A DNA stretch of 53,951 bases from a bacterium (GTDB lineage Bacteria > SZUA-79 > Acidulodesulfobacterales > Acidulodesulfobacteraceae). Positions 18,916 through 38,175 of this stretch are shown piece by piece. The notes beneath the pieces are model-generated. The model was given only the letters and a program-made list of their open reading frames with translations, did no database searches and was not told where the DNA came from. The stretch spans positions 1 to 53,951 of the forward strand of contig JAKAOK010000011.1 of NCBI GenBank assembly GCA_021812245.1. Direction: 5' to 3'. A program made the position numbers and the translations under genes. Positions within the stretch are counted from its first letter, which is position 1. Each line of letters starts with the position of its first letter.

Positions 18916-18975
18916 GTCCAAAAACCCCCTGATTAAATTTTAATGAAATTAAATTTAACAAATATACTAAAAATA

Positions 18976-20154
18976 TCAACTAATTTCAGCGTTGTTTTTA
19001 TTAAGGCTTTTAGCTTTTTCTTTTAAATTTGCAAAATAAATTGCGACGGGTCTATATGCCAAATGCGACCATTTGGAAAAAGGAACCTCTATGACTAGCA
19101 TGGGGAATAAAATCATCAAGTGAACCAGGTATATATAAAATATAGAAGGGACCGAAATTTTATATACGATAGCCGCGCGAAGAACAATCCCGCTGACGCC
19201 GGTTAAGAATAAAAGTATTACGAACATCCAGTCCGTATGATGCGAAAATTTGCTCCTTTCTATTTTTTTGGTAAGTCTTTTAATCACAAAATAAACGGTG
19301 CCAAATATAAGTCCTATGCTGGCAAAATAATCGAATAAAATTATATGGAGATAGGGAAGACTGTTTTCTGCCTGAAACCAGTCCAAAAAGAAAACAATTC
19401 CGACAAATAATACCACATAGCTTATCATAAGAAAAAGATGCGTCAGCCAGAAATTATATTTTCCGGTAGAAAGTTTTTTAGAAGAAGATTCTTCCGAGTC
19501 GTCGCATTTTGCGTATCTGTACTGCGTAAAAAAATTAAACATTAACGACCAGCCTTCGGTAAAATAAAGTTTTAAAGGGATTTTAACGCTGTCGTCACTT
19601 AAAACGGTTTTCCTGAACATATTATATATAAACGACGTGAGCATAACGCCCAGAAATACCGTAATAGGCCAGTCAAAAAAATAATCTATTTTATCGGGAG
19701 ATACCGCCTGTTCCAGAGTAGCGCCCGCCGCAGGATGCAGTCCGAAAAGAACCGCCCATTCTATTAACACCCCAAGCGCAACTATTAATATAGCGATATA
19801 TTCCGCATACTTAGACTTATATAAAATTTTGGAAATCCCCGTCCAGTCATATGCGCTTATTAAAAAGCGGCGAAGCGACATCATTAGTTCTCCCGGTTCC
19901 GCTTTTCTGGGACAGTTTTTGGAACATTCGCCGCAATAATAACATAACCACGGATCTAAATCGCTTACCAACTGCTCTTTCATTCCCCATCCCGCCATTA
20001 TCATTTCCTTTCTGGGGAACGGCCTGTCTTCGGTAGATAACGGACACACCGACGAACAAGTTCCGCACTGGAAACATTTTTTAAAATTGCTTTCGCCCAC
20101 TTCTTTTATATATTTGACCAACTCGTTGTCGGTCTTTACTACGGTATTTTTCAA
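18976..20154 (-). CDS. qmoC: Quinone-interacting membrane oxidoreductase subunit QmoC
   Basis: Membrane subunit linking menaquinol to the cytoplasmic QmoAB and AprBA. The N-terminal domain has two Fe-S motifs, CFQCGTCSSVCP and CYYCGECSKNCP, of the HdrC type. The C-terminal half has several membrane helices with His residues of the NarI/cytochrome b type. I place the start at a TTG (20154) with AAGGGGG six bases upstream; a longer frame begins 14 codons earlier, inside the end of qmoB. The last gene of the qmoABC set. Confidence 0.9.
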   Translation of the reverse strand: MKNTVVKTDNELVKYIKEVGESNFKKCFQCGTCSSVCPLSTEDRPFPRKEMIMAGWGMKEQLVSDLDPWLCYYCGECSKNCPRKAEPGELMMSLRRFLISAYDWTGISKILYKSKYAEYIAILIVALGVLIEWAVLFGLHPAAGATLEQAVSPDKIDYFFDWPITVFLGVMLTSFIYNMFRKTVLSDDSVKIPLKLYFTEGWSLMFNFFTQYRYAKCDDSEESSSKKLSTGKYNFWLTHLFLMISYVVLFVGIVFFLDWFQAENSLPYLHIILFDYFASIGLIFGTVYFVIKRLTKKIERSKFSHHTDWMFVILLFLTGVSGIVLRAAIVYKISVPSIFYIYLVHLMILFPMLVIEVPFSKWSHLAYRPVAIYFANLKEKAKSLNKNNAEIS

Positions 20155-20167
20155 AATAACCCCCTTC

Positions 20168-22474: not shown

Positions 22475-22514
22475 TTTCACTCCTATTCTAAATATATCTT
22501 TTTCTTTATCTTTT

Positions 22515-23813
22515 TTATAATTTTGCGTTATGCTGAATTACGGAAAGTGCGGCGGATGTTGCCGACTGGCCGGACATATAAACGTCTAAAGGAAACTTCG
22601 CGACTCCGGCTGAGAAAATACCACCCTCATAGTTTTCATTAAATATAAAACCGTTTTCGTCTATATCTATTTTTATATCGCCGTCTATTTTGATTTCGCT
22701 TAAGTCGTCTTTAATATTTGGACGCATACCTGCCGCAAGGACTACCATTTCCGCCCTGAATTTAATCTTTTTGCCTGAAAGCATATCTTCGACATCTAAT
22801 AGAAGGTCGCCGGTAGCATGGTCTTCCGATATTTTTCCTACGATGCCTTTATTAAATTTAATATTTTTGTCGCTTTCGGCTTTATTGAGGAAATTTTCGT
22901 ATCTTCCGGGGGTTCTTAAATCTATATAAAAAATGGTCGGAGAAGATGCGGGAGTTTTTTCCCTTAAATAAAGAGCCTGTTTTAAGGATGCCATACAGCA
23001 TATCGCCGAACAATAAGGAAGATGATTTTCGTTTCTAGAACCCGCGCACTGAATAAATGCAACGTTGGTTACTTCTTTATTATCGGACGGTCTCAAAATT
23101 TTGCCGCTTGTAGGTCCGTTATCGGCGGCAAGCCTTTCCATCATTACATTGGTAATAACGTTCTTAAACTTTCCGAATCCTAAGTTTTCTAATTTTTCAA
23201 CGGCATAAGGTTTCCAGCCGGTCGCAAAAATAATATCCGCAACTTTTAATTCTATTATACTTTCTTTGGCGTTAAGATTAATTGCGCCATATTTACAGGC
23301 TGATTCGCATTTTTTACATGCCGAAAACTTGCAATAATTTTCATCTACCGTATATTTCAGCGGAAATGTAGATATGGCAGGCATATATATGGCTTTTGTC
23401 GTATCCATATCATAGTTAAAATCGTTCGGTCTGTCTTCAGGGCATACTTTGGCGCATTCCCCGCAAACAGTGCAGTTATCATTTATATATTGAGGTTTTT
23501 GACGAATTTTAACTTTGTATCCCGTTCCGTCTTTTTCTTTATTTATTTCTTCTACGACGGACGAAACTAAAAATTTTATATTATCCTCGGTAGAGGACTT
23601 TATCCTCTTAGTATTTATTTCAAATCCGCAGAACGGCGGACATAGTTTTGGAAAATACTTATACATCTGGAGAACTCTTCCGCCTATATACGATTTTTTT
23701 TCTACTATATATACTTTTTTATCGACGGCTTCGGTAATTTCAAGCGCGGCAGAAATGCCGCTATGTCCGCCGCCGATTATAAGAACGGGGTTTTCATTAT
23801 TTAACTCGCTCAA
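22515..23813 (-). CDS. qmoA: Quinone-interacting oxidoreductase subunit QmoA
   Basis: HdrA-like flavoprotein of 432 residues that takes part in electron transfer between the quinone pool and APS reductase. The N-terminus holds the dinucleotide fold (VLIIGGGHSGISAALEI), and cysteine clusters CTVCGECAKVCP near residue 117 and CKFSACKKCESACKYG near 160 follow. TTG start with GGAG eight bases upstream. First gene of qmoABC, separated from aprA by 254 bases that hold a long hairpin. Confidence 0.9.
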   Translation of the reverse strand: MSELNNENPVLIIGGGHSGISAALEITEAVDKKVYIVEKKSYIGGRVLQMYKYFPKLCPPFCGFEINTKRIKSSTEDNIKFLVSSVVEEINKEKDGTGYKVKIRQKPQYINDNCTVCGECAKVCPEDRPNDFNYDMDTTKAIYMPAISTFPLKYTVDENYCKFSACKKCESACKYGAINLNAKESIIELKVADIIFATGWKPYAVEKLENLGFGKFKNVITNVMMERLAADNGPTSGKILRPSDNKEVTNVAFIQCAGSRNENHLPYCSAICCMASLKQALYLREKTPASSPTIFYIDLRTPGRYENFLNKAESDKNIKFNKGIVGKISEDHATGDLLLDVEDMLSGKKIKFRAEMVVLAAGMRPNIKDDLSEIKIDGDIKIDIDENGFIFNENYEGGIFSAGVAKFPLDVYMSGQSATSAALSVIQHNAKL

Positions 23814-24067: not shown

Positions 24068-25993
24068 TTAATTCTTCGAAATTAATTCTATGTAAGCCTT
24101 TTTAAATAATTCCGGCTGTCCCGTCTTCATATTCATTTTTGAATTAACGAACACCTTCCAGTTGGTTTCATCTAATTTTGGATGGTCGGTTCTGTAATAG
24201 AAACCGGGATATCTTGTTTCTTCCCTGAATAAAATGTGCCTTAAGTGAAGTTCTCCGACAACTGACCTATGGTAATTCTCCCATGCTCTCATAAGCTCGT
24301 GCAGATTTGAAGCGGCAAGCTTCGGTGCATCTTCTTTAAGTTTGTTCAAGAGGTCTAATCCTCTTAAAAGGCTTGCTTCGCTTGTCCTGTAAAATGTAGA
24401 AGTACCGGCAACATATTCGTCCATAAGCTTATTTAATCTGAATAAATAAAGTCTCGGCCTGATGTAGTTCGGGTTGACATTTGGCTCCGTCGAATAATCT
24501 TTGAACTTTTCGTACGTAATCATGGGTCCGTAGATTTTTTCGGCAAGGGTTTTATTATCGGTATGAACGGTAGGCTTATAACCCGGGTCGTCCAATACAA
24601 ATCTTACGGCGGATTTTGCCGCAATTCTTCCTTCTACGTAAGAACCTGACGAAAATTTATGCCCAGAGGCTCCGACTCCGTCTCCACCGGTGAAAAGGCC
24701 GTTTACGGTCGTCATGCGGTTATAGCCCCATTGCCATTCTTTAGGCGCTATGTCTTCCGGTCCACTGACCCACATTCCGCAGGCGCCAGAATGAGAACCC
24801 AAGAAATAGGGTTCGGTCGGCATAACCTCGGAGTTTGTTTCGCTCGGGTCTATATCCATAGATGCCCAAAGTCCGGCCTGCGCAACAGTCATATCCAAGA
24901 AATCTTCCCAAGCATCGGCTTCAAGCGATTTCTTTCTCTTTTCAGGAAGAGTTTCGAAAAGCGTTTTTATAGCACCGGAAGTATTCATATAGAACGGACC
25001 GTTTCCTTCCATCCAGTCTTTTAGCATAACATGGTTCCACAAGCACGTCGCCGGAATTTTGGCCTGTCCGTAAGGCCTGATGTCGTCGAGCATAGAGCCC
25101 CATTTTTGCATATAATCCTCGCCGTGGGCGTTTAACACTCTGGATTTAAACAATGTAAACCACGCACCTACGGGACCGTAACCATCTTTAAAGCGGTTAG
25201 GAACGAACCTGTTTTCCATGGTAGTCATTTCCGCTCCGGCATGATATCCCATAGCATACGTAGAACCAGCGTTCCATATGGCATACCATGTTCTTCCCAT
25301 ACCTTCCGCCTGAGACCTCGGCCTGAAGACGTTGACCGCTCCGCCGCAAGCCATAATTACCGCTTTTGCCTTGAATATATATATCTTTGCTTCTCTTAAG
25401 CTGAAACCGATTGCTCCCGCAACTCTGTTTTCATGTTTTTCGTCCATAAGAAGCTCTGTTACAAATACTCTTTCTAAGATGTTTTCTTCGCCTAGGGCTT
25501 TTCTCGCAGCTTCGGCAACTAATACTTTATAAGATTCGCCATGAATCATTATCTGCCATCTTCCAGCTCTAAGAGGCTTTGCGCCTTGCGCGATAGTCCT
25601 TGTGTCCTCTTCGTCTTCCTTGAATATCGGAAGGCCGAATTTTTCGAAAAGCTGAACGGTGGAATCTACGTGTCTGCCTACGTCGTAAATAAGGTCTTCC
25701 CTAACTAAGCCCATAAGGTCGTTTGCTACGTGTTTAACGTAATCTTCCGGAGTGTTGACTCCAAGATAAGTGTTGATTGCCGAAAGTCCCATCGCGACGG
25801 CGCCGCTTCTTTCGATAGAGGCTTTTTCAACCATCGTTATCTTCATATCTTTAGGCGCCCATTTTTTTATTTCGAATGCGGCTCCGCATCCCACCATACC
25901 GCCGCCGACGATTAAAACATCGGTGTCAATTTCTTCTATGGTATAATTGTTTAATACATCGGTGCTTGTCATTGAACCTTTCATTTCAGCCAT
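24068..25993 (-). CDS. aprA: Adenylylsulfate reductase alpha subunit
   Basis: FAD subunit of APS reductase, which interconverts APS and sulfite plus AMP. The 641-residue protein shows the FAD motif DVLIVGGGMVGCGAAFEIKK near residue 25-44 and the segments SGSYVEGRIAAKSAV and GGDGVGASGHKFSSG near residue 440-465 typical of AprA. No truncation is seen. Follows aprB by 65 bases. In the same locus sat and qmoABC complete the sulfate-to-sulfite segment. The sequence alone does not show the direction of the reaction. Confidence 0.96.
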   Translation of the reverse strand: MAEMKGSMTSTDVLNNYTIEEIDTDVLIVGGGMVGCGAAFEIKKWAPKDMKITMVEKASIERSGAVAMGLSAINTYLGVNTPEDYVKHVANDLMGLVREDLIYDVGRHVDSTVQLFEKFGLPIFKEDEEDTRTIAQGAKPLRAGRWQIMIHGESYKVLVAEAARKALGEENILERVFVTELLMDEKHENRVAGAIGFSLREAKIYIFKAKAVIMACGGAVNVFRPRSQAEGMGRTWYAIWNAGSTYAMGYHAGAEMTTMENRFVPNRFKDGYGPVGAWFTLFKSRVLNAHGEDYMQKWGSMLDDIRPYGQAKIPATCLWNHVMLKDWMEGNGPFYMNTSGAIKTLFETLPEKRKKSLEADAWEDFLDMTVAQAGLWASMDIDPSETNSEVMPTEPYFLGSHSGACGMWVSGPEDIAPKEWQWGYNRMTTVNGLFTGGDGVGASGHKFSSGSYVEGRIAAKSAVRFVLDDPGYKPTVHTDNKTLAEKIYGPMITYEKFKDYSTEPNVNPNYIRPRLYLFRLNKLMDEYVAGTSTFYRTSEASLLRGLDLLNKLKEDAPKLAASNLHELMRAWENYHRSVVGELHLRHILFREETRYPGFYYRTDHPKLDETNWKVFVNSKMNMKTGQPELFKKAYIELISKN

Positions 25994-26058
25994 AACAATT
26001 TATCCTCGCAATTTATAATTATTTTAATTAAATTAATAGATTTTTACCGGCTTAGGCG

Positions 26059-26499
26059 TTATTTCTTGGGAGCCGTAAGTTCTATCCCGATTTCATCGCA
26101 TAAACGTTCGTCTTTTAAACTTTCCGCATTGACGTTGACGTCTGCAATTCCCACATATGGGTCCAAGCCGCCTTCGGGCGTAGTTCTGATGGGGAATTTA
26201 AACCTTTTGATCTTTCCGTTTCTGAATTTAACAGTCCACATAATGGAATCGGAACCGCGCATAGGGATAACAGAAGCGCCCATAGGAGCAAAATCCTGAT
26301 AGGCCCTTATTTCGATAGCCGATTGGGGACAAATTTTAACGCAACTGTAACATTCCCAGCACTGGTCAGGCTCCTGGTTGTAAGCCTTCATAATATCCTT
26401 GTTAAGAACCATAAGGTCGTTAGGACAGATATACTGGCATGCAGTTTTATCTCTTCCCTTGCAACCGTCACATTTTTCGGCAATTACAAAACTTGGCAT
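26059..26499 (-). CDS. aprB: Adenylylsulfate reductase beta subunit
   Basis: Iron-sulfur subunit that passes electrons to AprA. The 146-residue protein binds two [4Fe-4S] clusters through CDGCKGRDKTACQYICP near the N-terminus and CWECYSCVKICP near residue 45-56, with the longer first spacing typical of AprB. The C-terminal tail beyond about residue 75 wraps AprA in known structures. The ATG at 26499 has AGGAGG seven bases upstream; an ATG two codons earlier is too close to it. Confidence 0.95.
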   Translation of the reverse strand: MPSFVIAEKCDGCKGRDKTACQYICPNDLMVLNKDIMKAYNQEPDQCWECYSCVKICPQSAIEIRAYQDFAPMGASVIPMRGSDSIMWTVKFRNGKIKRFKFPIRTTPEGGLDPYVGIADVNVNAESLKDERLCDEIGIELTAPKK

Positions 26500-26617
26500 T
26501 TTCATACCTCCTTAATTATATTGTTATTAATAAATAAAACTATATATCTATTTTTATTATATGTATATTGTGTACATATAGATAACATTTTTGACCTAAT
26601 TTTGATGTTTAACGGCG

Positions 26618-27841
26618 TTAAATCTCTCCTTTGGCCGCTTTGTGCAGCTTGACCTCGACTTTGTCTTCTTTAGAAAGAGAAGCATAGTAGTCTTTGAGTA
26701 TGGATAATACTTCCGGTCTCGAAAAATGGTCGGGGACTTCCTGCCCCTCCGATAAAAGCTTTCTTAGCATTGTTCCGCTTAAGGTAAGCCTGTCTTCCTT
26801 GGGATGCGGACATGTTCTGGTGGATGCCATGCCGTCGCACTTATGGCAGTAAAACGTCAGGTCCATTTTTAAAGGCTTTAATTCAAGGGCGTTTTTTGGA
26901 ATTTCGTCGAATATCTTATGCGCGTCAAACGGCCCGTAAAAGTCGCCGACACCGGCATGGTCTCTTCCTACAATAAGATGAGAACAACCATAATTCTGTC
27001 TAAAAACGGCATGGAGAAGCGCCTCTCTCGGTCCGGCATATCTCATTTCCATCGGATAACCTGCCTGAACAATCGTATTTTTAACAAAATATTTATCCAT
27101 CAACGTATTAATGGCAACGGCTCTGACGCTGGCGGGAATATCGCCCGGTTTTAATTTGCCGACAAGCTGGTGAATCAGAACTCCGTCGGTAGTTTCTACC
27201 GCAACCTTTGCAAGATATTCATGCGAGCGGTGCATAGGATTTCTGGTCTGAAAAGCGGCAACCGTGTTCCATCCTTTCTCCTCAAATACTTTTCTTACTT
27301 CCGCGGGACGCATGTATATTTCTTTAAACTCTACCGGATAAGTGCTCTCGCTTAAAACCACGACCTTGCCCGCAATATTGACGGCTCCCTGTGCCATGAC
27401 CTTTTGGACGCCGGGATGTTCCATATCGGTAGTTTTAAACACTTTTTGACACTCATGCGCCTTATCTATGGAGTATTTTTCGGATACGGTAATTATTCCT
27501 ATAATTTCAGAAGTTTCAAAATCGACGAGAGCAACTTCCTCGCCTATTCTAATTTCTTCCGATAATTCTTTTGTAGCGGAAAGAGTAATCGGTATTGGCC
27601 AGAACGTTCCGTCTGCCATAGTGTAATTATCTACTACGCCCTGCCAGTCTTTTTTCCCCATAAATCCTTCCAACGGAGTAAAAGCGCCTATGCCAAGCAT
27701 TATTAAGTCTGATGTTTCTCTCGAGGTCATAGGTAATTTTTTAAGGCTTTTTGCTTTTTCCTTAGCTGCTTCGAGTTCCGAACCGGTTAACAGCAAAGGC
27801 TTTAATTTTTTTTCTTTACCGTGCGGATTTACTAATGCCAT
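26618..27841 (-). CDS. sat: Sulfate adenylyltransferase
   Basis: Activates sulfate with ATP to APS and pyrophosphate, or runs in reverse to make ATP from APS. 407 residues. [14 protein letters not shown] near residue 195-208 carries the nucleotidyltransferase HxxH motif, and [12 protein letters not shown] and a zinc-binding [15 protein letters not shown] follow. It is of the homo-oligomeric dissimilatory type. It has a separate promoter 60-85 bases upstream and leads the aprBA-qmoABC-hppA run. Confidence 0.96.
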
Positions 27842-27971: not shown

Positions 27972-28274
27972 TTAAGACCATGTCATAGGATTATGCTCTA
28001 CGACTTTTTCTACAAATCCCTTATAATCGATAATTTTTATGTTTTCCAGTAGTTCGTTTTCCTGTATTCCTCTGGCTTTTATATCTGCCAGAAGACAGTA
28101 AACGCTGTTTTTTTGCGTCAAATTTTTTAATAATTCCTCAAACTTACCGCCCTTTTTAGCGGCATATATACCGTCTTCTATCAATAGAACTACATCGTCG
28201 TTTTGATTTATATAGTTTACGGCGTCATTAAGGGCCGAAGATTCATAAGGCGACTTTTTAATTATATGCAGCAA
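27972..28274 (-). CDS. dsrH: DsrH-like sulfur relay protein (TusB homologue)
   Basis: Small subunit of the DsrEFH sulfurtransferase, 100 residues. The start MLHIIKKSPYESS, the LLIEDGIYAA segment near residue 30-39 and LLADIKARGI near 61-70 match DsrH/TusB. At about residue 18, where the Allochromatium protein has a Cys, this one has Ala. That Cys is reported to be dispensable. TTG start with a GGAGG site. It follows dsrF and precedes sat. Confidence 0.82.
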   Translation of the reverse strand: MLHIIKKSPYESSALNDAVNYINQNDDVVLLIEDGIYAAKKGGKFEELLKNLTQKNSVYCLLADIKARGIQENELLENIKIIDYKGFVEKVVEHNPMTWS

Positions 28275-28318: not shown

Positions 28319-28693
28319 TTAAAAAGGCAACAGCGCTTTCATTTCCTTCATTTTTTGTTTTAACAAATTTCTATCGACAATCTCGACTTCCGTCATTAAA
28401 TCATCGCCGCTCAAACCTCTTTCTTCGAGAGACTCTTTTTCGACATAAATATGCGAAATCTCGAAATCGTCTATTAAAATAGGATATGTCATCGAAAAAT
28501 TTTTCTTTCCAAGCAAAGCCGTGTCTTGCCCTTTTTTTAACGAAAAAACTCCGTCTCCTACAAAGCTGACGCTTATATCCTGCTCATATGCCCCAAACAT
28601 AATCATGGCCTCAATTGCCTCCTGCTCAAAAATCGTTCCGTACGGAGCAGTCCTGCAAACAAACATTACTTTAGTTTTTTTCTGTTCCTCCAT
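28319..28693 (-). CDS. dsrF: DsrF-like sulfur relay protein (TusC homologue)
   Basis: Middle subunit of the DsrEFH hexamer, 124 residues. The segments CRTAPYGTIFEQEA near residue 13-26, VGDGVFSLKKGQDT near 45-58 and YVEKESLEERGL near 83-94 align by eye with DsrF. It lies 44 bases after dsrE and before dsrH, in the fixed order E-F-H. ATG with GAGG upstream. Confidence 0.87.
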   Translation of the reverse strand: MEEQKKTKVMFVCRTAPYGTIFEQEAIEAMIMFGAYEQDISVSFVGDGVFSLKKGQDTALLGKKNFSMTYPILIDDFEISHIYVEKESLEERGLSGDDLMTEVEIVDRNLLKQKMKEMKALLPF

Positions 28694-28737: not shown

Positions 28738-29088
28738 CTAAAATGTTATTAATCTATCGGACTCTATGCATAATTCCAATAATTGGCCTAATCCGGATAT
28801 TTCAGCCGCACTGGAAACGGTTTGAGCCACTAAACCTCTCCTTTTACCAGCGGCAACACAAGCAATTAACCTGATGCCTTTTTCGTTAAGTCCCAAAAGC
28901 AAGTTTCTAATATTTCGCTCATCCCTCGGGGGCTCCATAGTCCCGCAGGTATTGCAAACGCCCTCGTTGTAAAAAAAAACTCCTTTTATTTCATGGCCAA
29001 GTTCCATGGCCGCAACTATAAAATTATAGGCGCTGTCCATTGCTTGATGAGTATATTGTCCATCTTTTATAAGAACACCGAACTTCAT
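28738..29088 (-). CDS. dsrE: DsrE-like sulfurtransferase subunit (TusD homologue)
   Basis: Catalytic subunit of DsrEFH, which takes sulfur from rhodanese-like donors and passes it to DsrC-type proteins. The 116-residue protein keeps the active cysteine in RLIACVAAGKRRGL (Cys77, equivalent to the essential Cys78 of the Allochromatium protein), and the C-terminus ISGLGQLLELCIESDRL matches too. The ATG at 29088 is preceded by AAGGAGG; an earlier in-frame TTG overlaps that site. A hairpin in the 100-base gap separates it from dsrK. Confidence 0.9.
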   Translation of the reverse strand: MKFGVLIKDGQYTHQAMDSAYNFIVAAMELGHEIKGVFFYNEGVCNTCGTMEPPRDERNIRNLLLGLNEKGIRLIACVAAGKRRGLVAQTVSSAAEISGLGQLLELCIESDRLITF

Positions 29089-29144
29089 TGACCCTCCTTG
29101 CAAATTAACAAATTAACTTTAATTAATTACTTCCGTTTTACAAT

Positions 29145-29204: not shown

Positions 29205-30692
29205 TTACATTATTATAGCGTTGCTGACGAGTTGATGGATTCCGCCGACCATTTCCTCTTCAAAACCGTGGAGGGGAAATATTTTAGAAAACTGGGTTTT
29301 ACAGATTGCACAGATAAGGGCATAAAAATTAACTCCGTGATTATCCACAGCTTCCTTGACCGTCTGCATCCTAGGCATTGCGCCGGCCAATCTGAGATTC
29401 ATGACTTCTTCCGTCAATAGCCCGCCCCCGGCTCCGCAACAGTAAGTGCTTTCTTTCGTGGTGCCTTCCCTCAGTTCGACAAATTTATTGGCGGCGGCTT
29501 TTATCAGTTCCCTCGGTATGACTATCTGTCCGCCTTTAAAATCGCCCATTCGGGAGCCGCGCGCAACATTGCACGAGTCGTGGAACGTAACAACTTTATC
29601 GTCGTTCGCCGAAGGGTCGAGTTTTATAACGCCGTCCTTCACGAGTCCCAGAGTAAAATCGCAAATATGCATGGGCTGTCTGTATTTGGCATCTAAGAAA
29701 TCGAATGGTCCGTTCATAGTATTGGAATAAGTGTATGCCGCTCTCCATGCATGCCCGCATTCCCCGATAACGACCCTTTTAACTTTGAGCCTTCTTGCTT
29801 CGTCCCATATTCTTTTATTGATTTCCTTGGTGTTTTTATAACTTCCAAGAAACATGCCGAAATTTCCGGCTTCCGAAGCATATGACGAAACGGTATAGCT
29901 TATGCCGGACTTATAAAATACTTTTGCGTATCCTTTAAGCGATTCCATGTGAGGCATGGCAAAAAAATCTGCGGAAGGCGGAACTAATAAAACTTCCGCT
30001 CCCTCCACGTCCATGGGTATCTTAACGTCTTTTCCTGACTCCTCCTTTATTTCCTCCTCCAAATCGTCGAGCGTATTCCTTAAGGCAAGCGGAGGAATCC
30101 CTATATTGTTGCCTGTCCTGAAAACCTTATGGATGACTTCGGTCGCATATTTTTGGCCGAGGCCTATCGAATCCATTATCTGTCTGGCGGCCATAGTTAT
30201 CTCCGCCGTATCTATGCCGTAAGGACAATAAAGGGAACATCTTCTACATTCGGAACACTGATAAAAATAAGTAAACCAGTCTTTTAATACTTCTTCCGTC
30301 AATTCCTGCGAATTGGAAAGGCTTTTGAAAAATCCTGAGGGAGTAAAATAATACCTGTAAACCTTCCTCATCAATTCCTGCCTTTGAACCGGCATATTAT
30401 TAGGGTCGGCGGTTCCGAGGAAAAAATGGCATTTGTCGGTACATGCGCCGCATCTTACGCAAATATCCATATAATCCCTGACTGCTTTATTATTATCCAA
30501 TATTTCCTTGAAAACTCCGATAGCCTTTTCCTTCCAGCCGTCCTTTAGCTTGAACGGAAAACCTAGCGCTTCCATATCGACTTTTTGAGCTTCATTCATA
30601 TGTTCATATGCCGAAGCTCCGGGAACTATTTTAGGAATCGGAATTTTTCCGTCAAGAACCGGAATTTTATATTTGTCTTTTGGATTAGCCAT
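29205..30692 (-). CDS. dsrK: DsrK-type HdrD-like Fe-S protein
   Basis: Cytoplasmic catalytic subunit of the membrane DsrMK module, related to heterodisulfide reductase HdrD. 495 residues. Two ferredoxin motifs, CVRCGACTDKCHF near residue 78 and CSECRRCSLYCP near 147, are followed by the CCG-domain segments FHDSCNVARGS, YCCGAGGGL and ICAICKTQF in the C-terminal 140 residues, which form the special cubane site. It follows dsrM by 117 bases. Only dsrM and dsrK are present here; dsrJ, dsrO and dsrP are absent from the locus. Confidence 0.92.
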   Translation of the reverse strand: MANPKDKYKIPVLDGKIPIPKIVPGASAYEHMNEAQKVDMEALGFPFKLKDGWKEKAIGVFKEILDNNKAVRDYMDICVRCGACTDKCHFFLGTADPNNMPVQRQELMRKVYRYYFTPSGFFKSLSNSQELTEEVLKDWFTYFYQCSECRRCSLYCPYGIDTAEITMAARQIMDSIGLGQKYATEVIHKVFRTGNNIGIPPLALRNTLDDLEEEIKEESGKDVKIPMDVEGAEVLLVPPSADFFAMPHMESLKGYAKVFYKSGISYTVSSYASEAGNFGMFLGSYKNTKEINKRIWDEARRLKVKRVVIGECGHAWRAAYTYSNTMNGPFDFLDAKYRQPMHICDFTLGLVKDGVIKLDPSANDDKVVTFHDSCNVARGSRMGDFKGGQIVIPRELIKAAANKFVELREGTTKESTYCCGAGGGLLTEEVMNLRLAGAMPRMQTVKEAVDNHGVNFYALICAICKTQFSKIFPLHGFEEEMVGGIHQLVSNAIIM

Positions 30693-30809: not shown

Positions 30810-31571
30810 TTAAATAGATAAATCTTTTGCGTTCGGCCTGTAATATCTTTCTTCCTCCGGGTTATCGACCATATTCCTAGTAGGCGAAAAGAATATGCCG
30901 ACAAAATGCATCACCTTGCTGAACGGAATATAAAGCACAAGAAGCAATACGAGCGTGTAATGAATTAAAAAAACGGGGTTTGACGGAATATTCGTGAATT
31001 GGAAGTTCAAAAGTCCGTTCATATACGGGTCGAGTTGGTTATCCACGACTGTCAGCGCTGCCGGCGATATTACATAGTTTAGCGACAATCCCGCCAGACC
31101 AATAAGCATAATAAGAATCAATATTATGTAATCCGAAAATAAAGATATGAATTTAACGCGTTCGACGACAACCCTTCTCATTAAAAGAAGGAAAAGAGAC
31201 AGCACCATCACGACGCCGCACACTATGCCGATATCGACGAATATATCGTACCACCATGGAAGCGGATTTGCGTAAATAAAATGCCTTAAAAAATGCATGA
31301 ATATCAATAGAAAAAACGCTATATGGAAAAGATAACCGAAAAGCCACGTAGGCTTGTTTGATTTAAAAAGGCTTTTAAAAAAAACAACTTCTCCCAGAAT
31401 TCTGGCAAAAGCGCCGCCTGCGGTTAAAGGAGCGGGCGTAAGGGGAAGTTTAATAGGCTGCGGAGTAGTCGCGTATTGATATATCCTTAATGCTACCGCA
31501 ATTACAAAAATTAAACCGACCGTATAAGTGAAAAATAAAAAAATTGCCGTTGTTAAATTAAGAGGTGTCAT
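30810..31571 (-). CDS. dsrM: DsrM-type cytochrome b membrane subunit
   Basis: Diheme cytochrome b subunit related to NarI that exchanges electrons with the quinone pool and DsrK. The 253-residue protein has about five to six membrane helices and candidate heme ligands in LFHIAFFLLIFMHFLRHF (around residues 82-99) and in LIHYTLVLLLVL and SKVMHFVG (about 203-225). It is shorter than the roughly 330-residue DsrM of sulfate reducers with DsrMKJOP. It pairs with dsrK downstream and is separated from dsrC by a hairpin. Confidence 0.88.
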   Translation of the reverse strand: MTPLNLTTAIFLFFTYTVGLIFVIAVALRIYQYATTPQPIKLPLTPAPLTAGGAFARILGEVVFFKSLFKSNKPTWLFGYLFHIAFFLLIFMHFLRHFIYANPLPWWYDIFVDIGIVCGVVMVLSLFLLLMRRVVVERVKFISLFSDYIILILIMLIGLAGLSLNYVISPAALTVVDNQLDPYMNGLLNFQFTNIPSNPVFLIHYTLVLLLVLYIPFSKVMHFVGIFFSPTRNMVDNPEEERYYRPNAKDLSI

Positions 31572-31667: not shown

Positions 31668-32009
31668 TTAGACGCAACCGGTAGGTTTTGGAAGCCCCGC
31701 TATTTTAGCGAGCTGTTTAGCTGGACCTTCGGGAAACAGTTCATAAATAAACTTATTTGCTTCCTTTTTATCTGGTAAATTTTCGATAGACATAACCTCT
31801 TTTGCAAGAGTTTTAATTGCGGGTGCAACCTGAAACTTAATAAAATAATCTCTTATCCAATCGATAAGTTTCCAGTGCTTTTCCGTAAGCACCACGTTTT
31901 CCTGCTTAGCAAGAACTTCTGCGAGACCTTTGTCCCAATCGCCCAAGTTTTGAAGGTAGCCTTCGTCGTCGGTTTCGATCTTCTTTCCGTTATAATCAAA
32001 TTCAGCCAT
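31668..32009 (-). CDS. dsrC: DsrC/TusE-family protein lacking the CysA residue
   Basis: Small sulfur-carrier protein of 113 residues. In the family, DsrC carries two C-terminal cysteines, CysA and CysB, 11 residues apart and both needed for the DsrC trisulfide made by DsrAB. Here the end reads AKQLAKIAGLPKPTGCV. CysB is present at residue 112, but the CysA position, residue 101, is Ala (GCT codon, 31707-31709). Cys112 is the only Cys in the protein. It also has the 7-8 residue insert (around residues 73-84) seen in sulfur-oxidiser DsrC and TusE but not in Desulfovibrio DsrC. It is therefore TusE-like by active site but encoded inside the dsr locus. Confidence 0.88.
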   Translation of the reverse strand: MAEFDYNGKKIETDDEGYLQNLGDWDKGLAEVLAKQENVVLTEKHWKLIDWIRDYFIKFQVAPAIKTLAKEVMSIENLPDKKEANKFIYELFPEGPAKQLAKIAGLPKPTGCV

Positions 32010-32049: not shown

Positions 32050-33762
32050 CTAAACCATGTTTATATAGCCGCACGGACAGCTTTCCGCGCACTTTTTGCA
32101 CCCGTTGCACGTTTCTAAATGAAACTCGAAATGCTGGCCTTTCGGCAGCTTTTTTACCGCACTTTGAGAGCAGTATTCGAAACAGCTTCCGCAGTCGAAA
32201 CACATGCCGCAGCTCATACATCTCTTTGTTTCCAATATTAAATCGTCTAAATTCAGGTTGTTTAATATTCCGTCGAAGTCTTTAACTCTGACGGATGCAT
32301 CTCTTGAAGTCCTCGTATGCCTTTCCGTTTCCTGAAAATAGGCGATATACATGTTTTTGCCTTCGCGGTTCACGGCATCTCCGAATTTTATAACCGGCCT
32401 TTCGTCTTTGTTTATAGTTTCCCCGCTTAATTTTTCATGTATTGCGTATGCGGCATACCTGCCCATGCCGATGGCATCGGTAACCAGCCCGAATCTCAAT
32501 ATGTCTCCACCCGCAAAAACCTTGTCTTCGTCGGCGACCTGATATTTTTCGTTCACTTTAAGAAATTCGTTGTTTTCGTTTTTGGTAAGATTTTCTAATC
32601 CTTTATAATCGGGCTTCTGCCCGAAAGAATATATAAGGGTGTCAAGTTTGAGATTAAGCTCCTGCCCGCCTTCTATTATAATGGGATGGACTCTTCCAGA
32701 GGCATCTTTTTCGGAAAGTTTCATTTTTTTCAAGCGGACTCCCGTAGCTTTTCCATTTTCGGTAATTATTTCGTCTAAAGCAAATAAAAATTCAAACTTA
32801 ATTCCTTCGGCGTTGCCTTCTTTTACCTCGGCCGAGCCTTTTTCTTCTATTTCCGAAGCATCGTTTACGGTTCCTTTATTATAGATAAACGTTACGTTGG
32901 CGCCGAGCCTTTTGGCGACCATTCCCGCATCCATAGCACTGTCGCTTCCTATGACGACGACTTCTTTTCCGGCGTCTTTAATCTCGCCTGAAGCGGCTTT
33001 CTGAAGGAATTCGATGCCCGTGTAAACATTCGGAGAATCCGCTCCCTTCATCTTCATCTTTATAGGCTCGTGAGTGCCTATCGCGATAAAAATCGCATCG
33101 TAATCGGACTTCAGCTGAGCCATCGTTATATCGGCGCCGATATTTACTCCGGTTTTTATTTCCACTCCAAGATTTTGAATGCGTTTTGCCTCGGCTGATA
33201 TTATATCCAAGGGAAGTCTGAAACGCGGTATCCCGTACCTTAGATAACCGCCGACTTCAGGAAATTTTTCATATACGGTAACGTTATACCCTCTTAAGGC
33301 AAGATGATACGCCGCGGAAAGTCCCGCCGGCCCACTGCCTATAACCGCAACTTTTTCTTTTCTCGGCGTATCGGTCAATTTTTTAAATTGCAGATTATTT
33401 TTTATTCCGTAATCGCCCACGAACATCTCTACGGCGTTGATGGCGACGGACTTGTCCTTATATTTGCGGTTACAGCCTTCTTCGCACGGATGCGGACAAA
33501 CCCTGCCGGTAGTTGACGGCAGGGGATTAGATTCCGTAAGCAGATAAAAAGCTTCGGTAAGCGAATCGTCTATCGGTCTGTCGTAAGACTCGCTTTGCGC
33601 TATGTATTGTATATAGTCTCTTACTCTGGTACCGTTCGGACAAGTATCCATGCACGGCGGCTTTTTCTCCGCGTACTTGGGCCTGAAAGGAGACTGTGAC
33701 ATCCCTCCACCCGTGTTTAACTGGGCTTTTAAGGGTTTTTTTACCTTTTTTAATTCAAGCAT
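32050..33762 (-). CDS. dsrL: DsrL-like NAD(P)H:acceptor oxidoreductase (GltD-type fused to ferredoxin)
   Basis: Iron-sulfur flavoprotein of 570 residues. It has an N-terminal Cys-rich region (PPCMDTCPNG and GRVCPHPCEEGCNR, about 36-102), FAD motif VAVIGSGPAGLSAAYHLA near 140, a second Rossmann motif VVVIGSDSAMDAG near 265 and a C-terminal ferredoxin domain (CMSCGMCFDCGSCFEYC and CNGCKKCAESCP, about 515-565). This is the DsrL architecture, which transfers electrons between NAD(P)H and DsrAB. Its length fits the shorter DsrL-2 type found with reductive DsrAB. The NADPH-type YRR after the second motif is replaced by YNK. Glutamate synthase small subunit is the alternative, but no large subunit is present. 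Confidence 0.85.
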   Translation of the reverse strand: MLELKKVKKPLKAQLNTGGGMSQSPFRPKYAEKKPPCMDTCPNGTRVRDYIQYIAQSESYDRPIDDSLTEAFYLLTESNPLPSTTGRVCPHPCEEGCNRKYKDKSVAINAVEMFVGDYGIKNNLQFKKLTDTPRKEKVAVIGSGPAGLSAAYHLALRGYNVTVYEKFPEVGGYLRYGIPRFRLPLDIISAEAKRIQNLGVEIKTGVNIGADITMAQLKSDYDAIFIAIGTHEPIKMKMKGADSPNVYTGIEFLQKAASGEIKDAGKEVVVIGSDSAMDAGMVAKRLGANVTFIYNKGTVNDASEIEEKGSAEVKEGNAEGIKFEFLFALDEIITENGKATGVRLKKMKLSEKDASGRVHPIIIEGGQELNLKLDTLIYSFGQKPDYKGLENLTKNENNEFLKVNEKYQVADEDKVFAGGDILRFGLVTDAIGMGRYAAYAIHEKLSGETINKDERPVIKFGDAVNREGKNMYIAYFQETERHTRTSRDASVRVKDFDGILNNLNLDDLILETKRCMSCGMCFDCGSCFEYCSQSAVKKLPKGQHFEFHLETCNGCKKCAESCPCGYINMV

Positions 33763-33842
33763 AAATTTTTCCTCATAATTCTATAATGTATTGTAATATC
33801 GTAAGTATCGTAATAGTGAAATCCCGCAAGGAGGCGCAGCCG

Positions 33843-34079
33843 TTAGTTTTCATCGGGAAGGGTTAAAAAACTTCCTCCCGCGTAACCGTAAACGAGCTTC
33901 CCTTCATCCATTATATCTTTAAGGACGCCTTTAATATCGTCTTTAGTCAAGCCTTCAGCAGCAAAATCCCTTTCCATTTCCTTTACTAAGTCAATGGGTT
34001 TAAATCTTTTTTTGCCGGCATATTCCTTGACAAGCCCGATAATTTTATCTTCCACTTTCTTTTTTATTTCATCGGTCAT
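33843..34079 (-). CDS. dsrD: DsrD, activator of dissimilatory sulfite reductase
   Basis: A 78-residue winged-helix protein directly after dsrB, as in sulfate and sulfite reducers. In Desulfovibrio-type organisms DsrD activates DsrAB. The sequence is rich in Lys/Glu, with the segment KKRFKPIDLVKEME and a C-terminal YGYAGGSFLTLPDEN. DsrD is normally absent from sulfur oxidisers, so it marks this dsr set as reductive or disproportionating. Confidence 0.9.
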   Translation of the reverse strand: MTDEIKKKVEDKIIGLVKEYAGKKRFKPIDLVKEMERDFAAEGLTKDDIKGVLKDIMDEGKLVYGYAGGSFLTLPDEN

Positions 34080-34107
34080 AATATTATTCCCCTTAATATA
34101 AAATAAA

Positions 34108-35196
34108 TTATAATCTTGTGTATGCCGAATAATTCATCATGGATTCTGCAAGCCTGAAGTCGTCCACATGATATTTCGTAAATTCGAATCCGGTTATTTT
34201 AAAGAATCTGGACCAGCCTATCCTGTCAACCCATTCAGAAACTCTTTCTCCAGGATGCCCGCCTTCTTTATAGGCATTAATAATCGTTTTTACCGCTTCC
34301 GTAACCTTAGTCCATCTGGGCGGTTCATTGGGAATAAACGGAATGACCAATTTTGAAAACGTCGGCTTCGTTCTTGCGTTGGAGACTTTTCCTCCAACCC
34401 ATATCGAAACGCCGTCGCTGAGAGGGTCGGCTATAGGCATCGCGGGGCATACCGTATAACAGCTTCCGCAGAAAACGCAGGTTTCCTGAACTATCCTTAC
34501 GGTCTGTTTTCCGTCCGCCGTTACGTCCGGCCTTACGGAGTTGGTGGGGCAGGATGCGATGGTACTGGGAATTTCGCAGAGGTTCAATAATCTTTCCTGA
34601 TTTATTTTTGGCGGTTTTCTATGGGTTCCGACTATAGCTATGTCCGACGACCCGACCGAACCGCACATATTAAGACAGCATGCAAACGCAATTCTTACTT
34701 TTGAAGGAAGTTTTTCTTCGACGAAATATTCATATAATTCGTCCATTACGGACTTTACCACGCCGGACGCGTCGCTGGCCGAAGTATGGCAGTGGACCCA
34801 TCCCTGCGTATGAACTATATTTGCTACGTTATTGCCGATACCGCCGACATTTAAACCCAATTTCTCAAGGTCTTTTTTAAGGGGTTCGATATTTTTTTCG
34901 TCTTCAAATAAAAATTCGGCACTGTTCCTTGTGGTAAATCTAAGATATCCGCCGCAATATTTATCGGCTATATCGCATAGATCCCTGACGAAGCTTCCGC
35001 TGACTAATCTGGGAGAGCCAACCCTTACGGTATATAATTTGTCGCCGCTCTCGGCAACATGCACCATGGTTCCCGAATCCATAATTTCATGATAAGCCCA
35101 TTTTCCATAGTTCTTTTTTACCATAGGCGGCAAATAATCATGATAGTCATGAGGTCCTACATCTGTTAATCTTTTCTTTTTAACCTCTTCCGGCAT
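34108..35196 (-). CDS. dsrB: Dissimilatory sulfite reductase beta subunit
   Basis: Beta subunit of DsrAB, which reduces sulfite with siroheme and [4Fe-4S] clusters. About 362 residues. A siroheme-cluster segment [14 protein letters not shown] is near residue 170-185 and a ferredoxin motif [12 protein letters not shown] near 238-250. ATG at 35196 with GGAGG five bases upstream; an earlier in-frame TTG overlaps that site. Follows dsrA by 105 bases and precedes dsrD. Confidence 0.95.
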
Positions 35197-35301
35197 ATAA
35201 ACCTCCAAAAATTATATATATTATAATTTTAATTAAATAAATTTAAAATAATCTACACGATAATTAATCTTATCTTCCATAATTATTCATATAGGCTGCG
35301 G

Positions 35302-36495
35302 TTACTGCGCGGCATCTTCGTCTTCAAACTTAATAAACGGGTTGGTTCTCGGAGTGTTGACCATTTCCGGAATAGGTTCGAGACCGACTCCCTCAAGGAA
35401 CGTAACAAGTCCGACTCTTGCGATAAGCTCGCCTATTCTTTCCCTGCTGACGCCGTATTCGTCCCAGAACTCCCATATGTTGCTGATAAGCCCTTTAAGC
35501 TGTTCATAATCGTTTTTGCTGTCTTCGTTTACGTCGTAAAACGGAACGAGCATCATGCCCATTCTAGGTCCGGTAACTAACGGAGCTTTAGCGCCTATTA
35601 AGATGGAAAGGCCCTTTTCGTCTCCAGACTTCAAAGCCTTAGGCATTTCGTTAATGCAATGGTGGCATTTTACACAGTTAGAATCGTCTATGACAAGCTT
35701 ATCACCTTCGAACCACATACATTTTGTAGGACATTTGTCGAGGACGTATTTCTGTACGTCGAATTTTTTAACGTAATTTTTAACTTCTTCCTGATTTATT
35801 TTTATATTGTCTTTCCATGTTCCTATGAAAGCAAGGTCTGACCTTGACGCGGACGCGACGCAGTCGTTTGAACAGCCTGAAAATTTAAGTTTAAATTTAT
35901 AGTTAAAAGACGGTCTGTGCAATTCGTCTTGATATTCTCTCGTTAAATCATAGCAAATCTTAAGCGTGTCGTAGTTTGAAAATTCGCATCTTGCAGGACC
36001 AACGCAGCAGGAAGGAGTTCTAAGGTCGGAGCCGCCGCCGCCGAGGTCGAATCCCAGCTCGGCATATGCCTGAAAAGCGTCTTCCGCTTCCGCCTGCGTA
36101 ACGCCCAATATCTGGATATCTCCGGTAGCGCCGTGCAGATTTAAAAGCCCGCCCGCGTATTTTTCCGCGATGCCGGCAATCTTCCTAAGGACGTCGGAAT
36201 TATAAAAAAAACCGGACGTCTGGTTAATTCTCATAGAATGACATTCTTTTACACCCGGATATTTTTCGGGGGAATCGGAAAATCTTCCGACCATTCCGGC
36301 TCCGTAACTTTTGACGCCGGCCATGCCGCCGTGCTTCCAGTGGGTAATTTTATCGCGGTAGGACTCTTCGACCTGCCCTAAAAGGTCTTCCGTCCTCGGA
36401 CTCTTTTCTGCCGCTCTTTCCATCTCCCTAACGAAACTAATCCACTTCCCTTTTTTTAATTCGTCAAGAAGCGGAGTTTGATGCTTTTTGCCCAT
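35302..36495 (-). CDS. dsrA: Dissimilatory sulfite reductase alpha subunit
   Basis: Alpha subunit of DsrAB, 397 residues. The siroheme/[4Fe-4S] motif is complete: CCVGPARC near residue 164-171 and GCSNDC near 210-215. The ferredoxin insert reads CVKCHHCINEMPKAL near 275-289. First gene of the dsrABDLC run, behind a tandemly duplicated promoter. Phylogenetic typing (reductive versus oxidative) needs an alignment; the adjacent dsrD argues for the reductive type. Confidence 0.96.
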   Translation of the reverse strand: MGKKHQTPLLDELKKGKWISFVREMERAAEKSPRTEDLLGQVEESYRDKITHWKHGGMAGVKSYGAGMVGRFSDSPEKYPGVKECHSMRINQTSGFFYNSDVLRKIAGIAEKYAGGLLNLHGATGDIQILGVTQAEAEDAFQAYAELGFDLGGGGSDLRTPSCCVGPARCEFSNYDTLKICYDLTREYQDELHRPSFNYKFKLKFSGCSNDCVASASRSDLAFIGTWKDNIKINQEEVKNYVKKFDVQKYVLDKCPTKCMWFEGDKLVIDDSNCVKCHHCINEMPKALKSGDEKGLSILIGAKAPLVTGPRMGMMLVPFYDVNEDSKNDYEQLKGLISNIWEFWDEYGVSRERIGELIARVGLVTFLEGVGLEPIPEMVNTPRTNPFIKFEDEDAAQ

Positions 36496-36708: not shown

Positions 36709-38175
36709 TTATCGTAAAACAGTTTTTTCTTTTGTTTGTTTTATAAAAGCGACCCAGTTTTTAAACCAGCCCGGAGATGAAGGAGAATACATATGCGTAT
36801 AGCCGGCCAAAACATTTTTATATGTTATGCCGTCGGAAACGCCGTCCACTCCGTAACCCTTCTTCATCTTAAATGCAAATTTATACCTATCCTGAGACAT
36901 TTCTAAAAAAGAATGATGAAATTCATGTCCTTTTATTAATTTAATCTTATTAAACCACGGTCCTTCCTTATTATTTTCGTAAATATAAGGCGACAGCTTC
37001 GTATATCCATGCCCCTTCGGTTTTTTCGTAAGCTTGACATCGGCATCTATTACGCCTACCATTTCGTTAAAATTGTTTTCGTAAGAGATGCTTTTGCAAA
37101 GATACATAAGTCCGCCGCACTCGGCATAGACCGGAAGCCCTTTTTCTATCTTTTGTCTTATTTCTTTTCTTATATTAATATTTGCTTGAAGGCCCACCGA
37201 AAATATTTCCGGGAAGCCTCCGCCTATGTATAACGCATCGACCTCAGGGAGATGCGTATCGGCGATAGGGGAAAATTTAATTATCTCGCATCTCAAATCT
37301 TCGAGAGCTTCTAAGTTTTCGTTATAATAAAAATTAAACGCATTATCGTAAGCAAGACCTATTTTAAGCGTATTGCGGATGTTTCTTTTTATACTCTTTT
37401 TTAAAGATAAAGCCGGTGAATTTTTAATATCTGGGCATAATTTATTTGCCGCTTTAGAAATTTTTATAATATTTCCCAAATCTATATATTCTGAAATTTT
37501 AGACGACATTTCCGCAACAAATTTTTCGACTTCTTCCGCGGAGAGAGTCGATAAAAGACCGAGATGCCTTTGCTTTACCGAAAACTCAGGATTATTTGGA
37601 ATATTGCCTACAACCTTTAAATCGGTATAATACTCAATAGCCCTAAGCAAATTTTTTTCATGTCTTTTGCTGTGGACTTTATTTAGAATTATTCCCTTTA
37701 TATTCACCCCTTTGTCGAATTCCTTAAATCCTAAAATCAGCGGAACGACTCCCCTGTTTAGCTCGCCCACGTCGATTAAGAGAATAACCGGAAGGTCTAA
37801 AAGTTTTGCCATTTCGGCATTGGAAGATTTTCCGTATATATCGAAGGAATCGTGCAAACCGTGATTCCCTTCCACTATACTGATTTCGGAATCTAAAGAA
37901 TGGTTTATAAAATGATTTCGTATTTTATTTCTGGACATAAAATAAAAATCAAGATTGTAAGTTCGTTTGCCTGACGCAATATTGAGCCACATAGGGTCGA
38001 TAAAATCGGGGCCTTTTTTAAACGGCTGGACCGACATCCCTTTATTCCTTAACAAACGAGACAGCGCTATCGAAATAGTGGTTTTGCCGGAATTTCTTTT
38101 AGCGGCGGATATATAAATTCCGTTAATGCGGTTACTTTTTTTGCCATAACTGCCGCCGGCTTCGATATCAAGCAT
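36709..38175 (-). CDS. cbiA: Cobyrinate a,c-diamide synthase family protein (CbiA; DsrN-like siroheme amidase)
   Basis: ATP-dependent amidotransferase of 488 residues. The N-terminal half has the dethiobiotin-synthetase-type P-loop (AKRNSGKTTISIAL near residue 28-42), and the C-terminal half is a class I glutamine amidotransferase with the catalytic Cys in PVYAECGGLMYL near residue 350 and a C-terminal His. CbiA amidates cobyrinate in cobalamin synthesis. Directly upstream of dsrA, however, the more likely role is amidation of siroheme for DsrAB (DsrN). No other cobalamin genes are in the window, which supports the latter but does not prove it. Confidence 0.8.
   Translation of the reverse strand: MLDIEAGGSYGKKSNRINGIYISAAKRNSGKTTISIALSRLLRNKGMSVQPFKKGPDFIDPMWLNIASGKRTYNLDFYFMSRNKIRNHFINHSLDSEISIVEGNHGLHDSFDIYGKSSNAEMAKLLDLPVILLIDVGELNRGVVPLILGFKEFDKGVNIKGIILNKVHSKRHEKNLLRAIEYYTDLKVVGNIPNNPEFSVKQRHLGLLSTLSAEEVEKFVAEMSSKISEYIDLGNIIKISKAANKLCPDIKNSPALSLKKSIKRNIRNTLKIGLAYDNAFNFYYNENLEALEDLRCEIIKFSPIADTHLPEVDALYIGGGFPEIFSVGLQANINIRKEIRQKIEKGLPVYAECGGLMYLCKSISYENNFNEMVGVIDADVKLTKKPKGHGYTKLSPYIYENNKEGPWFNKIKLIKGHEFHHSFLEMSQDRYKFAFKMKKGYGVDGVSDGITYKNVLAGYTHMYSPSSPGWFKNWVAFIKQTKEKTVLR

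Follow-up and report, generated by a model that had tools for sequence, protein, structure and literature searches.

The DsrC protein encoded in the dissimilatory sulfite reductase operon of the window (the whole stretch of 53,951 nucleotides that was analyzed) lacks the upstream cysteine of its C-terminal arm and, judged by sequence comparison across the family, this single-cysteine form is a genuine, fixed variant and not a product of chance or a quirk of one strain. The reading favored here, to which a probability of about 0.5 is assigned, is that the variant works without the upstream arm cysteine, with Cys112 serving as a persulfide carrier and with no arm trisulfide being formed. The plus strand is interrupted by a stop within 31668..32009, and the minus-strand frame is open and starts with ATG. 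On this frame, the product of which ends in ...GPAKQLAKIAGLPKPTGCV, it was confirmed that the penultimate Cys112 is kept, that Ala101 lies upstream, and that there is no other cysteine, as an earlier sequence-only reading of this DNA had stated without naming the strand. Its statement that the alanine codon, GCT, lies two changes from any cysteine codon is correct for TGT, but TGC is three changes away. It had also named the missing residue CysA. The upstream arm cysteine is indeed absent, but Venceslau 2014 and Santos 2015 are said to use CysA for the penultimate cysteine and CysB for the upstream one, so that the two labels were probably swapped, which leaves the substance of the claim unaffected.

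The protein carries the hallmarks of the DsrC family with one exception. Profile scores were far above cut-off for both the Pfam DsrC family (PF04358, 131 bits) and TIGR03342 (135 bits), the penultimate cysteine sits on a flexible C-terminal arm, and dsrAB and dsrMK are neighbors of the gene; the second conserved cysteine, expected eleven positions upstream of the penultimate one, is replaced by Ala101. An AlphaFold2 model built from 34 sequences had a mean pLDDT of 92, with a mean of 44 over the last three residues. All 8 PDB matches of this model with E < 0.001 are DsrC-family structures, the top match being A. vinosum DsrC (1yx3; TM 0.83, 50% identity in the structural alignment). At 113 residues, compared with 105 in the reductive-type row of the alignment, the protein does contain the insert that had been ascribed to the oxidizer DsrC/TusE type. 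The DsrC of Archaeoglobus, a reducer, is likewise long (115 residues), and length by itself is therefore no marker of oxidizers.

The surrounding genes are arranged in the order dsrN-A-B-D-L-C-M-K-E-F-H-sat-aprB-aprA-qmoA-B-C-hppA (Table 1), in a genome of 1.78 Mb that is 87% complete. The same order was found across the family as far as the contigs compared extend, with the exception of G021 (L119), in which neither sat nor apr follows dsrH within the stretch compared. By sequence identity, the DsrA of the window is nearer to the reductive type than to DsrA of oxidizers. The dsrD frame (33843..34079) gave no Pfam or NCBIfam match. No dsrJOP genes were seen by eye in the window operon, and when 11 family genomes were searched for the NrfD family (DsrP), 6 had no match and the remaining five had one or two, on other contigs; Neukirchen et al. 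(PMC10504309) report dsrMK only for the order Acidulodesulfobacterales. The YNK motif of DsrL, reported for the Acidulodesulfobacterales (PMC7596348), was present in 18 of 24 family sequences, and the other 6 have YRR, like other DsrL-2 proteins. Two divergent types of the dsrABDL block (window 32050-36495; L112-L138) occur in the family, with DsrL at ~85% and ~50% identity to that of the window. Both types are paired with dsrC and dsrMK genes of varying closeness, both with Ala101, and one genome (G007) has one locus of each. Elsewhere in the window, a small ORF (53221-53526) encodes a repeated DEIKSTHKELS unit that possibly forms a coiled coil.

Table 1. Genes of the dsr-sat-apr-qmo region of the window and key codons of dsrC
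Feature	Position	Strand	Basis and remarks
dsrN, siroheme amidation, cobyrinate diamide synthase family	36709..38175	minus	PF07685, PF01656
dsrA	35302..36495	minus	TIGR02064 497 bits, over cut-off; Ala110 in place of an almost universal Trp/Phe
dsrB	34108..35208	minus	TIGR02066 491 bits, over cut-off
dsrD	33843..34079	minus	Named by position and by eye; conserved place in operon
dsrL-2, NAD(P)H:acceptor oxidoreductase	32050..33762	minus	YNK at 294-296
dsrC, single-cysteine DsrC	31668..32009	minus	113 aa; PF04358 and TIGR03342 over cut-off; AlphaFold2 model
dsrC codon 100, CTC, Leu	31710..31712	minus	Ala in outside rows; Leu also in Desulfurella
dsrC codon 101, GCT, Ala	31707..31709	minus	Cys in two-cysteine DsrC, 11 residues before the penultimate Cys
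dsrC codon 112, TGC, Cys	31674..31676	minus	Penultimate and sole Cys of window DsrC
dsrM, short cytochrome b subunit	30810..31571	minus	NF038037 105 bits, under cut-off of 300; PF02665 37 bits, over cut-off
dsrK	29205..30692	minus	NF045796 533 bits, over cut-off; CCG-type cysteines C312, C374, C418-C419, C461, C464
dsrE	28738..29103	minus	TIGR03012 over cut-off; Cys82 aligned with sulfur-transfer Cys
dsrF	28319..28693	minus	TIGR03010 over cut-off; family-specific Cys13
dsrH	27972..28274	minus	TIGR03011 over cut-off; Ala18, Cys in most other DsrH rows
sat, ATP sulfurylase	26618..27841	minus	Named by inspection; syntenic in family
aprB (26059-26505), aprA (24068-25993)	24068..26505	minus	Named by inspection
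qmoA, qmoB, qmoC	18976..23813	minus	Named by inspection
hppA, membrane pyrophosphatase	16825..18921	minus	Named by inspection

The family set (taken to be Ca. Acidulodesulfobacterales/SZUA-79, an assignment with which the YNK motif of the window DsrL agrees) consisted of 30 genomes (G000-G029), and its named loci include the isolate SZUA-79 (L033) and Ca. Acididesulfobacter diazotrophicus AP1 (L037). A DsrC match was found in 23 genomes, ten of them 95-100% complete. The 23 genomes yielded 25 readable C-termini, every one of which has Leu100-Ala101, with exactly one cysteine in each protein; two readable copies, both of the alanine type, were found in each of G001 and G007, and a second copy in G011, partial at a contig end and without its C-terminus, was left out of the 25. 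Conservation of Ala101 among relatives, and a close relative with cysteine at that position that would make the change one of a single strain, had been named as points to check. The former was borne out, the latter was sought in the family with no such relative found, and a strain-level change is thus rejected. The suggestion that another DsrC might be encoded elsewhere is not supported, as the 87%-complete genome of the window has one DsrC homologue and no two-cysteine DsrC was found in any of the 23 dsrC-bearing genomes. Codon usage was compared in 24 of the 25 genes, because the readable copy of G011 is missing its first residues. Ala101 is encoded by GCC in 10, GCT in 8, and GCA in 6, and codon 112 is TGC in 21 and TGT in 3. 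The median dN/dS of family dsrC was 0.048 (141 usable of 276 pairs), and 17 of the 21 arm residues (93-113) are invariant, with synonymous codon change at all 17. On these sequence statistics the gene is under strong purifying selection, and the invariant arm taken together with synonymous change and the low ratio speaks for selection holding Ala101.

Among the best 80 of 472 confirmed relatives, drawn from contigs of one genome per species, all 73 non-family loci have cysteine at the upstream place and the 7 family loci, on contigs already within the 25, have alanine. Residue 100 is leucine in all 27 sequences of the clade that unites the family with Desulfurella (25 family, 2 Desulfurella) and alanine in 74 of 74 outside rows. 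In a sample of 386 genomes, DsrC was found in 67 and dsrA in 49, with 23 of each coming from the family; weak DsrC matches (L186 and L192) were excluded from the counts, low-scoring partial DsrC-like matches in G035, G052, G068, G199, G232, and G322 were left out, and several dsrA matches in the searches carry an internal stop. Of 26 non-family genomes with dsrA, 25 had a DsrC match, and in 24 of these at least one copy has the upstream cysteine, the sole exception being the Desulfurella-like G262; no DsrC was found in the 26th (G283, 83% complete; L191 gave none). Among 19 non-family genomes with DsrC and no dsrA, 17 could be read, and 9 of these have the upstream cysteine (G052, G053, G146, G152, G199, G247, G315, G325, and G337, dsrA-negative at E 1e-50). 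The upstream cysteine is thus not a clean marker of DsrAB in the 386-genome sample: Ala101 together with DsrAB, as in the window, breaks the rule that the cysteine goes with DsrAB in one direction, and the nine dsrA-negative genomes bend it in the other.

The origin of the variant was examined in a tree of 105 of 111 DsrC-family rows (110 columns, midpoint root), from which the trait columns 100-101 had been removed and the distant rows L173, L185, and L187-L190 left out, and into which 25 of the 73 non-family named loci were hand-picked; 20 of its 96 inner branches are unresolved. The 25 rows of the family and the 3 operonic Desulfurella rows form one clade (100/99), which falls in a 69-row half together with DsrC of sulfur oxidizers and Nitrospirota. 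E. coli TusE lies in the same half, elsewhere, among proteobacterial rows. Desulfurella is nested inside the family rows (99/94), a placement that suggests transfer between the Acidulodesulfobacterales and Desulfurella lineages. Neukirchen et al. (PMC10504309) likewise place the two lineages close together in their DsrC and DsrK trees and describe both as having dsrMK only; the word "cysteine" does not occur in the main text of that paper. A separate branch of DsrC-like proteins with alanine at the upstream place (L142, L172, L184, L170, L177, L183, L168, L171, L175, L166, and L163) includes the second copy of Desulfurella, along with rows of both dsrA-bearing and dsrA-lacking genomes. The literature searched, as far as its accessible parts go, makes no mention of the missing DsrC cysteine in either lineage, and a proteome paper on D. 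amilsii may have it. The abstract of that work, Florentino et al. 2019, with a DsrC specialist among the authors, reportedly refers to a modified sulfite reduction mechanism.

The Desulfurella-like family is represented by three genomes, G262, G386 (taken to be D. amilsii TR1), and G387, each with two DsrC copies, none of which has the upstream arm cysteine; two copies have been reported for D. amilsii (DESAMIL20_1431 and 2056; PMC5317093). The cassette dsrA-B-D-L-C-M-K is the same in D. amilsii and G387 as in the window, and the operonic DsrC, which ends in GPARQLVRYAGLSKPTGCV, shares with that of the window Leu100 and the lack of cysteine at position 101. It differs in having Val101 and, in 3 of 3 genomes, an extra Cys76 in the insert region outside the arm; because of this residue it is not strictly a one-cysteine protein, and a displaced resolving cysteine is possible there. 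Desulfurella differs from the window also in a second, unlinked DsrC-like copy, which ends in GPAKKAAKIAGIKKPVGCV and has alanine at the place of the upstream cysteine, and in that no dsrEFH of the window type adjoins the dsr cassette. In D. amilsii, two small genes after dsrK (L199, 4276-5094) are DsrE-like by eye and may replace dsrEFH as sulfurtransferases. G262 (L141, G262:C1:1352000-1367000) has split dsrL, dsrK, and dsrN genes and a dsrA match from which the first 36 residues are missing, and its dsrC frame is open. D. acetivorans has been reported to be without DsrMK and DsrC (PMC5317093), and the split dsr genes of G262 possibly explain the reported absence of DsrMK. D. amilsii respires thiosulfate and sulfur, and APS reductase was not detected according to the same report (PMC5317093).

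For each partner protein the comparison covered 19 to 24 family sequences, namely those of sufficient length among 28 loci. The CCG-type cysteines of DsrK are kept, with C312, C374, C418-C419, and C461 present in 23 of 23 sequences and C464 in 22 of 23 (one gap). Cys82 of DsrE is present in all 21 family and all 47 outside sequences, and Cys13 of DsrF has been gained in 20 of 21. At the position of Cys20 of DsrH, the active-site cysteine that is essential in A. vinosum, matched by alignment position, the 19 family sequences have alanine (12), serine (3), cysteine (3), or another residue (1), compared with cysteine in 38 of 47 outside the family, a loss that weakens a simple oxidative relay of the A. 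vinosum kind. A new cysteine was counted as clade-wide if at least 90% of the clade sequences and no more than 10% of the outside ones had it, and by this criterion none was found in DsrB, DsrD (only 5 outside rows), DsrM, or DsrK. DsrA Cys181 passes it but is threonine in both Desulfurella rows. Cys564 of DsrL, beside Fe-S ligands, is the only new cysteine in all 26 clade sequences (1 of 39 outside). DsrA Cys163 and Cys259, examined as family-specific residues, were dropped, as they occur in 8 and 7 of 48 outside sequences, as were two candidate clade traits in DsrM: Arg92, which depends on a one-residue gap and whose RH pair can be realigned, and Lys181, which adjoins a five-residue insertion in the alignment.

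DsrA residue 110 is alanine, serine, glycine, or cysteine in 26 of 26 clade sequences, compared with Trp (46) or Phe (2) in 48 outside sequences. A second, partly overlapping set of 26 gave Trp 22, Phe 3, and Ser 1, the serine being that of a second DsrA copy in G120, outside the clade, so that a small residue at this position is not diagnostic. Residue 110 aligns with a tryptophan in chain A of PDB 3mm5, which we take to be the tryptophan that plugs the second (structural) siroheme, and the small residues possibly lie at the entrance of that siroheme. A literature search on this tryptophan found nothing. As the traits of DsrC, DsrA, and the partner proteins travel in one cassette, they are not independent evidence. 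TusA-family genes gave 5-9 matches per genome in all 17 family genomes tested, and none was found in G386 and G387.

Three explanations are of very low probability. Decay or a sequencing or assembly artefact can be set aside almost entirely: the Desulfurella-type locus of G262 is broken in dsrL, dsrK, and dsrN, but in the window all dsr, sat, apr, and qmo frames are open, the 25 family sequences from 23 genomes agree, and codon 101 varies synonymously in a gene with the low dN/dS given above. A resolving cysteine moved to another place in DsrC, for which Cys76 of the three Desulfurella proteins might speak, is very doubtful in view of the exactly one cysteine in the window protein and in each of the 25 readable family proteins. 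It is also highly improbable that the window protein serves tRNA 2-thiolation as a TusE and is encoded in a dsr operon only by accident. A single penultimate cysteine with alanine upstream has been reported for most members of the protein family in organisms that lack DsrAB (PMC3397948), both TusA-family genes and DsrEFH occur here, and with E. coli TusE the protein shares a single, penultimate arm cysteine and, presumably, sulfur supply from a partner of the TusBCD/DsrEFH type. The earlier description of the protein as TusE-like at its active site nevertheless applies to residue 101 only. The tail is PTGC where E. coli TusE has PVKC, the TusE equivalog model NF008562 was not reached (110 bits, cut-off of 191), the protein groups with Desulfurella and with no characterized TusE in the 105-row tree, and the gene stands in a sulfate-respiration operon. 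Moreover, the presence of dsrA and dsrC agrees in 28 of the 30 family genomes (both present in 22, both absent in 6), and the two exceptions are at contig ends, with G005 ending inside dsrB and G009, which has dsrB and dsrC, ending before dsrA. Of 20 family genomes searched for MnmA, 19 gave a match (18 of them above cut-off), and all six dsr-less genomes have an MnmA match (just under cut-off in G027) and no DsrC/TusE match. This distribution argues against an obligate role in tRNA 2-thiolation and would be compatible with a side role; dsrC follows dsrA, not mnmA, which makes a tRNA-thiolating TusE unlikely.

The remaining explanations concern how sulfur and electrons pass through DsrC. Since one arm cysteine is missing, an arm trisulfide within one DsrC molecule cannot form. 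The sequence-only reading had proposed that DsrAB is coupled to DsrMK differently and that the protein is a persulfide carrier for DsrEFH; the findings fit this, and we infer much the same. In the favored reading, with Cys112 as persulfide carrier, this residue would still reach the siroheme of DsrAB and Cys82 of DsrE on its arm. In the reductive direction, DsrL-2 and DsrAB would pass the sulfur of sulfite to Cys112 as a persulfide, and DsrMK would reduce this persulfide itself, rather than an intramolecular trisulfide, with release of sulfide. In the oxidative direction, DsrEFH would load Cys112, and DsrAB-DsrL would oxidize the sulfur of the persulfide to sulfite. The substrate for energy coupling at DsrMK would then have one cysteine. 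In A. vinosum, DsrC needs no more than its penultimate cysteine to bind sulfur and to receive it from DsrEFH, and both functions persist in a Cys100Ser variant (PMC3397948). The DsrL-2 of D. amilsii, made in E. coli, is strictly NADP(H)-dependent (PMC7596348); the biochemistry found for the clade concerns this one protein. An intermolecular trisulfide, in which a second DsrC, a partner protein, or a small thiol supplies the thiol and DsrMK reduces DsrC-S-S-S-X, would suit equally well a DsrK that keeps its disulfide/trisulfide-type active site, but is on balance unlikely. The kept CCG-type cysteines and the clade-wide Cys564 of DsrL point toward it. Clusters of the Hdr type act on disulfides between two molecules, and the Hdr of methanogens cleaves such a disulfide, which provides a general precedent. 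Against it stand the lack of a clade-wide new cysteine in DsrB, DsrD, DsrM, or DsrK, the threonine of Desulfurella in place of DsrA Cys181, and the position of DsrL Cys564 next to Fe-S ligands. Improbable, too, is that DsrAB-DsrL performs the whole six-electron reduction and releases sulfide, DsrC being only a DsrEFH-linked carrier for oxidation or trafficking. Such a division of labor would be in keeping with the loss of the aromatic residue of DsrA in all 26 clade sequences, with a D. amilsii DsrL-2 that works with NADP(H) (PMC7596348), and with the absence of cysJI or sir genes as given by Tan et al. (PMC6776010). However, the Desulfurella cassette has no adjoining dsrEFH of the window type, so that a role as DsrEFH partner alone does not account for the Desulfurella dsrC; the arm varies very little and keeps its PTGC tail; and serine at DsrA 110 occurs outside the clade in G120.

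Among known systems, A. vinosum DsrC resembles the window protein in fold, similar length, penultimate cysteine, and PTGC tail, and dsr loci of sulfur oxidizers often hold dsrEFH, dsrL, dsrM, and dsrK, as does the window. Unlike the A. vinosum type, the window protein has Leu100-Ala101 and is encoded beside a reductive-type dsrAB and dsrD, and dsrJOP were not seen in its operon. Phages, too, have single-cysteine DsrC/TusE-like proteins, 112 in all, in which only the penultimate cysteine is retained (PMC8190135); these are encoded by auxiliary genes outside any dsrAB operon, and their authors regard them mostly as TusE (PMC8190135).

By the accepted view, sulfite reduction is linked to energy conservation through the DsrC trisulfide. 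In an order that has sat-apr-qmo-dsr, the members that carry dsr have, like the cultured Desulfurella, an operonic DsrC without the second arm cysteine, and in consequence the trisulfide would be not obligatory, or intermolecular (in Desulfurella, by way of another cysteine), or else DsrC would be unused in the reductive direction. The textbook DsrC mechanism thus probably works differently in these acid-loving bacteria and in Desulfurella. More specifically, and with the odds slightly against it, dissimilatory sulfite reduction, and possibly sulfur oxidation, may proceed in the two lineages by way of a DsrC with one arm cysteine and no arm trisulfide, within a rewired DsrABDLCMK cassette. The question is directly testable, as D. 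amilsii is cultured and its DsrL has been made in E. coli (PMC7596348). The second arm cysteine has served as the criterion that sets a fully functional DsrC apart from TusE (PMC6018796, PMC3397948, PMC8190135). If the cassette is rewired as proposed, it would have lost the arm cysteine of DsrC and the aromatic residue of DsrA and apparently kept only DsrMK of the membrane complex, and the cysteine rule for telling a "true" DsrC from TusE would fail for sulfate-respiration operons.
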